Of a stretch of DNA of 47,966 nt, positions 10,253-25,769 are shown piece by piece. Position 1 is the first letter of the stretch; every line of letters starts with the position of its first letter. The position numbers and the translations under genes were made by a program. The notes under the pieces are model-generated. The model did not search any database. It saw only the letters and a program-made list of their open reading frames with translations, and was not told the origin of the DNA. The DNA lies in assembly GCA_023261505.1 (NCBI GenBank), contig JAHFOV010000010.1:1-47966 (forward strand), in the 5' to 3' direction. This DNA comes from Planctomycetota bacterium. Lineage in GTDB: Bacteria; Planctomycetota; Brocadiia; Brocadiales; Bathyanammoxibiaceae.

Positions 10253-10307
10253 TGTAGGGACAGACCTTTAGGTCTGTCCGATGGACAGGTCTAAAGACCT
10301 GTCCCTA
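10253..10307. repeat. paired-hairpin repeat GTAGGGACAGACC...GGTCTGTCC / GGACAGG...CCTGTCCCTAC
   Basis: gtagggacagacctttaggtctgtccgatggacaggtctaaagacctgtccctac; related single hairpin at about 25722-25750. Confidence 0.85.
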
Positions 10308-10435: not shown

Positions 10436-11614
10436 TTAAAGGCCCTTTATCTGCCCCAGGTAACCCGTATAATTCCTTTTCACCTCCTGCAGAGAGTCAC
10501 CCCCAAATTTTTCCAGGAAGGCGGAGGCTAGTTCAAAGGCCACCACTGCCTCCACCACTACGGAGGCGGCGGGGACGGCGCAGACATCGGAACGCTCCGC
10601 AGCCGCTTGCACAGGCGTTTTGCTAGAGAGTTCTACTGAGGAAAGGGGCTTTCTGAGGGTAGGTATGGGCTTCATGGCAGCCCTTAAGACTACAGGTTCT
10701 CCATTTGTTACGCCTCCTTCAAGACCGCCTGCGTTATTGGTCTTTCTGTAGAACCCGCTTGTCAGGCCCTTTAATGCCCCTATATCCCCCTTTTCTAAAG
10801 GGGGACTAAGGGGAATTTTATCATAAAATATCTCATCATGCACCAGGGAGCCTAACCTTTCTGCCACCTCAAAGCCTAGCCCTATCTCTACCCCCTTTAT
10901 GGCCTGGACGGCCATGACAGCCCTTGCCAACCTCCCGTCCAGCCTCTCCGTCCATTGGGCATAACTGCCCAGGCCAGGTGGCACCCCAAAGGCCGCCACC
11001 TCTATTATCCCCCCCACAGTATCCCCTGCCTTTTCAGCCTCCTTTATCCTCCCCATCATACCCCTTTCTGCCTCTTTATCAGGACAGTAGAGGGGGCTTG
11101 AGTCCCTACAGCGTTGTAACTCCTGAGGGTCACCCGGGATGGCGGTAGCCAGAAAACCTCCAATACCCACAACATATCCCAGTACATCGATATTGAATTC
11201 CTTGAGGAGTGTCTTTGTAAGCGCACCCGCGGCCACCCGGGCGGCAGTCTCCCTGGCGCTGGCCCTCTCCAGGACATTACGCATGTCGTGAAACCCATGC
11301 TTCATGGCCCCCGCCAAATCGGCATGGCCAGGCCTTGCCCTGGTAAGCTCTGGGAGGTCCTCTATAGAATAATCCAGATTTCTTATCTTGAGGGAAACAG
11401 GGCTACCGATACTGAGGCCCTTTCTTGTGCCAGAAAGGAGTTCTACCTCATCCTTTTCGATCTTCATCCTCGGTCCACGGCCGTAGCCTCCCTGTCGTCG
11501 GACAAGTTCTGCGTTCATTGTTTCGGTATCTATCTTGAGTCCGGCGGGCAGACCCTCCACCACTGCTATCAGGCACTTGCCGTGGGACTCTCCTGCGGTT
11601 AGGTATCTCAGCAT
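10436..11614 (-). CDS. aroC: chorismate synthase
   Basis: [25 protein letters not shown] start at 11614; [52 protein letters not shown] track start extends into upstream repeat DNA. Confidence 0.95.
10771..10820. repeat. palindromic repeat inside aroC, read as [17 protein letters not shown]
   Basis: atgcccctatatcccccttttctaaagggggactaaggggaatttta; matches intergenic element at 14143-14191 in inverted orientation. Confidence 0.88.
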
Positions 11615-11944
11615 ATAATCCTCCAGTGTAGCGTGCCAGTCATGCCTTAGGTCCACCACAAAGATAGGCGGATTCGCCAATTATTATGGCGAACAGATCC
11701 GCCCTCCAAACTAATTGGCGGGCTTTCAGCCTTTGGCGGACTTGTCTGGCATGTCCTTCTATCGTGCGACACAAGGTCGCACGCTACATTTCAATTAATA
11801 ATAGAACTCTTTAAAATTCTATCAAAATGCATTATATACTCTACAAGTTTTTATCAAAATTCATTATCTATGATAGAAATGTGTGATAAAATAGCTCACA
11901 AATACGAATTCCAAATAACAAATGTTCAAATTACAAATGTTCAA

Positions 11945-14142: not shown

Positions 14143-14191
14143 TTAATGCCCCTTAGTCCCCCTTTAGGAAAGGGGGATTTAGGGGGGATTT
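14143..14191. repeat. palindromic repeat CCCCTTAGTCCCCCTTTAGGAAAGGGGGATTTAGGGGG
   Basis: Same element as the one embedded in aroC (10771-10820). Confidence 0.87.
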
Positions 14192-14687: not shown

Positions 14688-14774
14688 TAACCTCCCCTTT
14701 ATCCCCTCCTTTGTAAGAAGGGGAAAATACACACCCCTTAATCCCCTCTTTCTAGAGGGGAAGAGGAGAGGTAA
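14688..14774 (-). repeat. inverted copy of the 1159-1243 double-hairpin repeat
   Basis: ctaacctcccctttatcccctcctttgtaagaaggggaaaatacacaccccttaatcccctctttctagaggggaagaggagaggtaaa. Confidence 0.9.
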
Positions 14775-14824: not shown

Positions 14825-15361
14825 TTACTCCTCGTTTACCATCCCTTTCCACCCCTCCTCTCTAATGCCCCACATCTCGTACATAGGACACGCAATATAC
14901 ACAATTAAGGTGGAAGCCAATACAATGTATGAAAAAAGGAGCAGTAGAGAAAACCCCGGATATACATACCTGACCAACCACGGCCCTATAAGGATGCAGC
15001 CAATACCCACGAAGGAGGCCACGTAAGTGGCCATCTTTACTCCCTCTCTTATCGTCGTCATAGAAAGAATCCTGGATAGTACAAAAAATATCAATGGTAT
15101 TGAAAAGGTGTGCACGTGGGTCACTTCTAGCAGTTCCCTTCTTGTCTTGGGGAAGAGCATGCCTTCTTTGGGAAGTGGCGCATCCTCCGGCTCGCCCTCC
15201 CGAAGGTTGCCCAGATAATAGCTCTCCACCTTTTCTGGGCTGAATTTCGTTCTTTCTATGAAATTCAGAAAGGCAACGCCCATGCTTATTCCCATGAAAA
15301 TGAGAAAGAAGCTGAAGAATACCTTATTACTCAAGGAGGCTGAGGCTAAGCCCCTTCGCAT
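14825..15361 (-). CDS. multi-pass membrane protein of unknown function
   Basis: Four hydrophobic segments; overlaps the 3' end of the FMN-binding/ApbE gene, suggesting translational coupling. Confidence 0.7.
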   Translation of the reverse strand: MRRGLASASLSNKVFFSFFLIFMGISMGVAFLNFIERTKFSPEKVESYYLGNLREGEPEDAPLPKEGMLFPKTRRELLEVTHVHTFSIPLIFFVLSRILSMTTIREGVKMATYVASFVGIGCILIGPWLVRYVYPGFSLLLLFSYIVLASTLIVYIACPMYEMWGIREEGWKGMVNEE

Positions 15362-17069
15362 CCTTTTGGACCCTCTTGCTTTCTTCCTTTAAAATCTTTT
15401 CCATACCTCTTGTAACCTTGAGGTTTATCTCGCCATCCCTTTCACAAACAACGATTGCTGAGGTCCCCTTAAGGCTTTCCAGAAGTTCCCGCCCATTTTC
15501 CTCCCCAAGCACAAAAACACTGGTAGATAGGGCGTCAGCCTCGGTGGCGTCGGGTGCAACCACCGTTACGCTCACCATCCCCTCCACCGGCCACCCTGTC
15601 CTTGGGTCCAAAATATGGCAGTATCTCTTACCGTTTACGTTAAAGAATCTCTCATAATCTCCAGAGGTAGCCACCGCACAATCTTTTAACTCCAGATGGC
15701 CCAGCAGGCGGCCTTTTTCTCGGGGGTGCTGGACTCCTATCTTCCAACAGTCCCTGCCTGGAGGGCTTCCAAGGGCGTAAATATTACCCCCAAGGTTGAC
15801 GCAGGCAGCCTCTATGCCATTATCTTTTAATGCCTCCACTGCCCTATCTACGGCATAACCCTTGCCAATAGCGCCCAGGTCTAGCCTGGTGGAGGGATTA
15901 TTAAAGGAGACGCTCCCTTTCCCGCCCGATGCCGATTCACTGCCAGCTTGCTTTTGAATGATTATATTCTTGTAAGATACAGCAGGGAGCACCGACTTTA
16001 TATCTTCCTGAGAGGGGATACTTACTTTGCCGTCGTAGAAGCCCCATAGATTCACCAAAGGCTCCACGGTTATATCAAAGGCCCCCTGGGTTAGATTACT
16101 GTAATGTAAGGACCTTTCAATAATTGCTAAAAGCTCGCCGTCACAGTCAACTGGCCCCTTTCCAGCCTCTCTATTAATCTTAGATAGTTCGCTTTCAGGC
16201 TTATAATTGCTCATCAGCCTATCCAGCCTCTCCATCTCCCCGAAGGCCGCCTTTATCGCCTCCGACGCCGCTTCCTTATTGGGCGCATAGAGTGAGACCT
16301 CGGCATAGGTGCCCATTATAAGCCTCGCCTCTTTGTAAAGCTCTTGCGAGTTTCCATCATAAGATACAGGTCGTGTCATGTCTTGCCTACGGCAGATTCG
16401 CTGTGGCGAACCTTCGGCAGATTCGCTGTGGCGAACCTTTGGCAGATCCGCTGTGGCGGGCCTAGAATAAGGCAGTGCATGGGATAAATCCCTGCGCCCA
16501 CTGAGATAGAAATTATCTACCAGGGCCAGCACTTTCCTCACTCCTTCACACATGCACACTACTGACATGGTGGCACCGGTGATATTTATAATGTCCTTAT
16601 CTATGCTGAGAGGATTTTTCAATGACTTGCCAATGAACTGGTGGGTGAAACGCTTTCTGGCCACCTCTCCGCCACGGCTCTCCCTGTAAACCAATACGAC
16701 AATATTCTTTATCTTTCCATCTGGTCTCACTGCAACAATAAAGTCAAATGGATGGAACTTACCCACCTCCTGGGTTATCACCGCATAGCCCAGGACTTCG
16801 CCACCCTTCCTGCCGATATAGACCAGAAAGCCCTCCTCAAAGAGTTTTCTTCCAAGTCTGTCTTCCAGTGTCTTCCTATCCTCTGCGGAAAGAAGAAGTC
16901 TATCGGTCAATATCTCCTCCGCCTCCGGGAAGACCCGTTTCAGGGCCTCCTCTTCGGTGAGGAAGACTTGCACTTCATAATTATCCTGAGGCTCGGTCCC
17001 CTGGGAAACTGCATTTGCAGACAGTAAGAAAACTAAGAATACACTAAAGACACCCCAGCCCGGCCTCAT
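15327..17069 (-). CDS. apbE: FMN-binding domain fused to FAD:protein FMN transferase (ApbE)
   Basis: N-terminal FMN-binding segment PLSIDKDIINITGATMSVVCMCEGV; C-terminal ApbE LIMGTYAEVSLY, LDLGAIGKGYAVDRA, HILDPRTGWPVEGMVSVTVVAPDATEADALST. Confidence 0.92.
   Translation of the reverse strand: MRPGWGVFSVFLVFLLSANAVSQGTEPQDNYEVQVFLTEEEALKRVFPEAEEILTDRLLLSAEDRKTLEDRLGRKLFEEGFLVYIGRKGGEVLGYAVITQEVGKFHPFDFIVAVRPDGKIKNIVVLVYRESRGGEVARKRFTHQFIGKSLKNPLSIDKDIINITGATMSVVCMCEGVRKVLALVDNFYLSGRRDLSHALPYSRPATADLPKVRHSESAEGSPQRICRRQDMTRPVSYDGNSQELYKEARLIMGTYAEVSLYAPNKEAASEAIKAAFGEMERLDRLMSNYKPESELSKINREAGKGPVDCDGELLAIIERSLHYSNLTQGAFDITVEPLVNLWGFYDGKVSIPSQEDIKSVLPAVSYKNIIIQKQAGSESASGGKGSVSFNNPSTRLDLGAIGKGYAVDRAVEALKDNGIEAACVNLGGNIYALGSPPGRDCWKIGVQHPREKGRLLGHLELKDCAVATSGDYERFFNVNGKRYCHILDPRTGWPVEGMVSVTVVAPDATEADALSTSVFVLGEENGRELLESLKGTSAIVVCERDGEINLKVTRGMEKILKEESKRVQKDAKGLSLSLLE
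16391..16465. repeat. three tandem 25-bp palindromic units inside the apbE fusion
   Basis: ggcagattcgctgtggcgaaccttc x3 (third copy diverged); each contains ttcgc-tgtg-gcgaa. Confidence 0.93.
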
Positions 17070-25668: not shown

Positions 25669-25769
25669 TAGTACGTTGTAGGGATAGGTCTCTAGTCCGC
25701 CTGAGGCAAATCCCAACTATAAATGGATAGACCTTCAGGTCTGTCCCTACATTTCTTTAGATGACTATA

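Follow-up and report, generated by a model that had tools for sequence, protein, structure and literature searches.

The chorismate synthase gene of this Planctomycetota bacterium carries, in frame, a copy of a 45-bp palindromic repeat that is dispersed through the genome, is absent from the aroC genes of relatives, and falls in a loop of the modeled protein. We consider it very probable that the repeat is a small selfish hairpin element, spread by a transposase and retained within genes only at places that tolerate 15 additional codons; the encoded peptide itself is most likely functionless. The aroC copy is one of 16 in-frame copies, in 15 genes, that we judged sound in the 2.5-Mb, 147-contig planctomycete MAG carrying the window, by which we mean the whole stretch of 47,966 nucleotides analyzed here.

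The aroC gene and its insert

The repeats of the window and the gene that holds one of them are as follows.

10436 to 11680, minus strand: aroC, chorismate synthase (Pfam PF01264, E=2e-113; NCBIfam PRK05382, above cut-off; PDB 1q1l, E=1e-112)
10773 to 10817, minus strand: 45-bp palindromic element within aroC (repeat matching; clean 45-bp insertion relative to G001)
14145 to 14189, plus strand: intergenic copy of the 45-bp element (repeat matching; hairpin of -28 kcal/mol)
10255 to 10280, plus strand: copy of a second, GTAG-tagged REP family (GTAGGGACAGACCTNNAGGTCTGTCC), downstream of aroC
25726 to 25745, plus strand: further member of the GTAG REP family

A sequence-only reading of this DNA had quoted the aroC stretch correctly on the minus strand and had placed the repeat at 10771-10820, with a second palindrome outside genes at 14143-14191; the repeat proper occupies 10773-10817, and the second copy indeed lies between genes, at 14145-14189. 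In the frame of the gene the imperfect palindrome reads as 15 residues with a lysine flanking each side, and it differs from the 45-bp consensus, AATCCCCCTTAGTCCCCCTTTAGTAAAGGGGGATTTAGGGGGATT, at only 4 positions. The aroC gene, which likely starts at the ATG at 11614, is full-length and intact despite the insert, as had been claimed, with full-length family scores and intact conserved motifs.

Comparison with relatives identifies the 45 bp as an insertion. The best named AroC relatives come from Candidatus Scalindua and another Planctomycetota MAG, best hits that suggest a place for the genome in or near the order of the anammox planctomycetes. None of the same-order AroC proteins compared contains the element. 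Against the nearest relative, that of genome G001, which is 84% identical and lacks the element, the insertion is clean: exact removal of the 45 bp from the window gene keeps the frame and yields DKKGLTSG, compared with DKSKKGLTGG in G001 (the G001 counterpart at the junction is DKSKKGLTGGFYRK). No target-site duplication is visible in this comparison.

The position of the insert is one at which AroC proteins differ. The earlier statement that typical AroC proteins have only a few residues here was overstated, as the stretch from HDE to GGxEGG spans 23 to 48 residues across AroC loci from many phyla and 43 in the window, and because loop length varies in this way across bacteria, the insertion site can be regarded as tolerant. 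An AlphaFold2 model (mean pLDDT, 87.9) has strands 262-265 and 287-290 on either side of the insert, and residues 268 to 285, which correspond to it, form the sole segment with a pLDDT below 50. In this model the repeat is thus probably a disordered loop between two strands.

Dispersed copies in and between genes

About 47 distinct places in the genome match the consensus with at most 16 mismatches in 45, while shuffled windows always show at least 20 and reversed control patterns gave no match; a search of the genome with the element returned 47 hits (E<=0.001), in which both strands of one copy are sometimes counted. The copies fold as hairpins of -25 to -33 kcal/mol (z of -2.7 to -4.3). Their ends are AATCCCCC and GGGGGATT, and the flanks of 24 copies have mostly T before and mostly A after the element, with no GTAG or CGTC tag at its end. 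Matches to a 3-bp target-site duplication in the flanks numbered 3, at most weakly above the 0.9 expected from shuffling. Searching the same genome with half-elements recovered, for the most part, the two arms of copies already identified, and no transposase was recognized between element arms in the one cluster read. At five loci (L045, L060, L061, L063, and L067), copies sit inside a larger repeat, GCGAAGAA...AGAGATTCTTC; when these element-bearing repeats were used to seek an empty site, the flanks were shared and no clean empty copy was found.

The consensus is open in only two of its six frames, one per strand, reading IPLSPPLVKGDLGGL or NPPKSPFTKGGLRGI. Since 45 bp is exactly 15 codons and each strand has one stop-free frame of three, about one-third of insertions into genes would be expected to stay open. 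Seventeen of the roughly 47 copies lie within open reading frames (ORFs) of at least 200 amino acids. With sound in-frame inserts in 15 genes, the aroC event is not a single one, and both the dispersal of the palindrome and its absence from relatives agree with the sequence-only reading. A peptidase M48 at L067 was excluded as a host, the element there lying within a doubtful 5' extension. The hosts, and the placement of the inserts where it was assigned, are listed below.

Hosts of in-frame elements: AroC, squalene-hopene cyclase, MurF, UshA-like cytochrome protein (two copies), AroA, CobQ, CobD
Hosts, continued: radical SAM protein, AnmK, Ddl, MurD, nucleoside phosphorylase-family protein
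Hosts, continued: RNase HII-like protein, CCG-domain Fe-S protein, S41 peptidase
N-terminal inserts: AroA, Ddl, squalene-hopene cyclase, first UshA copy
C-terminal inserts: MurF, CobD, nucleoside phosphorylase-family protein
Interior inserts, between domains or in loops: AroC, CobQ, AnmK, MurD, second UshA copy, radical SAM protein

Relatives were compared for 11 of the 15 hosts, AroC and ten others; one search, with fragments of ten hosts joined into a chimeric query, served to find relatives of all hosts at once. Comparison with nine related genomes shows the corresponding site to be free of this element in MurD, CobQ, AnmK, UshA (both sites), squalene-hopene cyclase, Ddl, AroA, CobD, the radical SAM protein, and MurF. 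Alignments to PDB entries put the MurD insert after the middle domain and the AnmK insert in a loop; in Ddl, MurF, and squalene-hopene cyclase the insert falls outside the core that aligns. The net change in length relative to relatives is well below 15 residues in several hosts (CobQ, MurF, and Ddl), and therefore either loop residues were deleted or exchanged for others, or the loop was altered after insertion. For AroA and Ddl, both with N-terminal inserts, translation might start downstream of the element.

Other repeat-like sequences were encountered in and around these genes. The AnmK insert (L057 1230-2600, residues about 310-345) is composite, a SAIRNPK-type repeat immediately preceding the palindrome, and a DRASALS stretch near residue 76 of AnmK is likewise missing from relatives. 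An internal stretch of the phosphorylase-family protein (L065 1543-2538), RIRNAEGGMRNSASATPHSAY, looks like a further in-frame repeat family, and RHSESAEGSPQRICRRQDM, between domains of an ApbE-like protein at 15327-17069 of the window, resembles one more in-frame repeat. Other C/G-rich short inverted repeats, of the CCCCTCTTTCTAGAGGGG type, lie between genes at 14690-14762.

The GTAG-tagged family GTAGGGACAGACCTNNAGGTCTGTCC is unrelated to the 45-bp element and has 28 copies at no more than 2 mismatches. It too occurs in frame, in IspD, a V-ATPase C/AC39-type subunit, and two hosts of the 45-bp element, the UshA-like protein and the radical SAM protein, so that the genome tolerates more than one kind of in-frame palindrome. 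The sole Y1 transposase (Y1_Tnp, RAYT-like) gene found, at locus L042 (G000 C118:6500-9105), 1332-2389, sits among at least nine GTAGGGGCGGACC-type GTAG REPs, close variants of GTAGGGACAGACCTNNAGGTCTGTCC, and no copy of the 45-bp element is near it. The RAYT-like ORF contains REP-derived peptides, as an N-terminal array and an internal stretch, and because its own ORF includes such peptides the transposase may be degraded.

Beyond this genome, a strict pattern detects at least one copy of the element in 15 of the 59 genomes searched from the order, in 13 of 392 from the phylum, and in 6 of 50 named ones drawn from mixed phyla. High copy counts are rare: the genome of the window and G044 have them, and G030 and the Nitrospirota MAG nzgw271 (G063) less markedly so. 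In G044, only 1 of about 32 copies read lies within an ORF of at least 150 amino acids, compared with 16 of 47 in the genome of the window (Fisher P = 0.0007), a contrast that is only indicative because patterns and ORF limits differed between the two sets. In nzgw271, in-frame copies of the same element class occur in several ORFs, among them a GlnE-type adenylyltransferase and a histidine kinase, so the habit is not confined to the genome of the window; ORFs of other genomes that had no Pfam match (L278, L272, L281, and L290) were excluded from gene counts. In G009, from another family of the order, CobQ (L195, L239, C123) contains a related but different in-frame palindrome, NPPVPPFAKGGQGEI, in the same linker as in the genome of the window. 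Palindromes at one CobQ linker in two families point to repeated insertion at tolerant sites.

Proposed spread and retention of the element

In the explanation that we favor, a noncoding, hairpin-forming 45-bp repeat, AATCCCCC...GGGGGATT, would spread through the genome by means of a putative transposase. Most insertions into genes would be lost, and those in a permitted phase and position would persist, with the survivors at termini, interdomain linkers, or variable loops passing selection, as in aroC. Dispersal, absence from relatives, preservation of the frame, and the loop position in the model are observed; from there we infer that the element is mobile by transposition, that the surviving inserts are neutral, and that the peptide is translated.

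The insert might instead be functional, the aroC peptide or an mRNA hairpin being kept to regulate the gene or the enzyme. A strong hairpin is retained in coding RNA, and the palindrome of the same class in the CobQ linker of G009 could mark a favored site. The inserts, however, occupy 15 unrelated genes, in either orientation and as two different peptides, which makes a shared function unlikely, and the AroC loop is generally variable in length and predicted to be disordered; we regard this possibility as improbable. Still less credible is an artifact of assembly or binning, or a degraded and disused aroC. The genome is a MAG in many contigs, but both halves of the gene flank the repeat in order and retain their motifs and family scores, and the same picture recurs in fifteen genes on many contigs and, with in-frame copies, in other MAGs. 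Least credible of all, with a negligible chance, is that the AroC loop grew independently and came to resemble the repeat by accident. Other bacteria do reach 48 residues in this stretch without any such repeat, but the few mismatches of the aroC copy lie far below the minimum seen in shuffled sequence, and its match to dispersed copies refutes a chance resemblance.

A different question is what moves the element. A RAYT-like transposase of the genome could act on it in trans, making it a REP by mechanism and not by sequence, a proposal that is compatible with a selfish repeat tolerated in genes but that we think unlikely. One Y1_Tnp gene is present, and a small palindrome without a clear target-site duplication fits HUH single-strand transposition. 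Against this, the RAYT-like gene lies in its own array of GTAG REPs, away from any copy of the 45-bp element, and the element has no GTAG tag; with L042 being a GTAG REP array, mobilization of the element by this gene is unsupported.

Relation to known palindromic repeats

Like MITEs, the 45-bp element is a short, non-autonomous inverted repeat present in many copies; matches to a target-site duplication are at most weakly in excess of expectation, and the half-element search and the one cluster read gave no parent insertion sequence. A literature search gave no description of an untagged 45-bp family, and a text search of papers for the repeat or peptide gave no match, a result of little weight because such sequences are seldom spelled out. 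It is possible, at somewhat less than even chance, that the copies represent an undescribed, untagged 15-codon palindromic mobile family of at least two phyla, whose length and open frames make in-frame insertion common, so that loops and linkers in housekeeping enzymes are remodeled time and again, with one CobQ linker hit in two families. Peptides such as NPPKSPFxKGG should be taken in annotation as marks of repeats, not domains, and the core enzymes AroC, MurD, CobQ, and AnmK offer a set for testing how well an insert of constant length, 15 residues, is tolerated.

Rickettsia supplies the best-known examples of palindromes read in frame within proteins, and the relaxed selection on an intracellular parasite readily explains them there. 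Their occurrence in anammox-related MAGs and a Nitrospirota MAG suggests greater generality.

The sequence-only proposal that a mobile or REP-like element has become peptide is supported, the repeat being dispersed, inserted in an intact aroC, and absent from the aroC genes of relatives; the repeat is not a classical REP. Intragenic GTAG/CGTC REPs, described in Opitutus, Thauera, Rickettsia, and others, with neutrality proposed for those in linkers or loops (PMC3733652), are likewise short palindromes in coding regions, but the 45-bp element has neither an end tag nor a linked RAYT, and a true GTAG family coexists with it. By the tags tested, it belongs to neither REP superfamily. The closest parallel in habit is with Rickettsia palindromic elements (RPEs), which PMC10969869 (citing Ogata 2000 and 2002) describes as dispersed palindromes in frame in many unrelated genes, with a conserved peptide and at tolerated positions, much as the 16 copies here are spread over 15 genes. 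RPEs are described as about 150 bp long (PMC10969869) and some, RPE-4 and RPE-6, bear a CGTC tag (PMC3733652), whereas the element described here is 45 bp, untagged, and found in Planctomycetota and Nitrospirota MAGs, and so is set apart from RPEs by its length and the phylum of its hosts.
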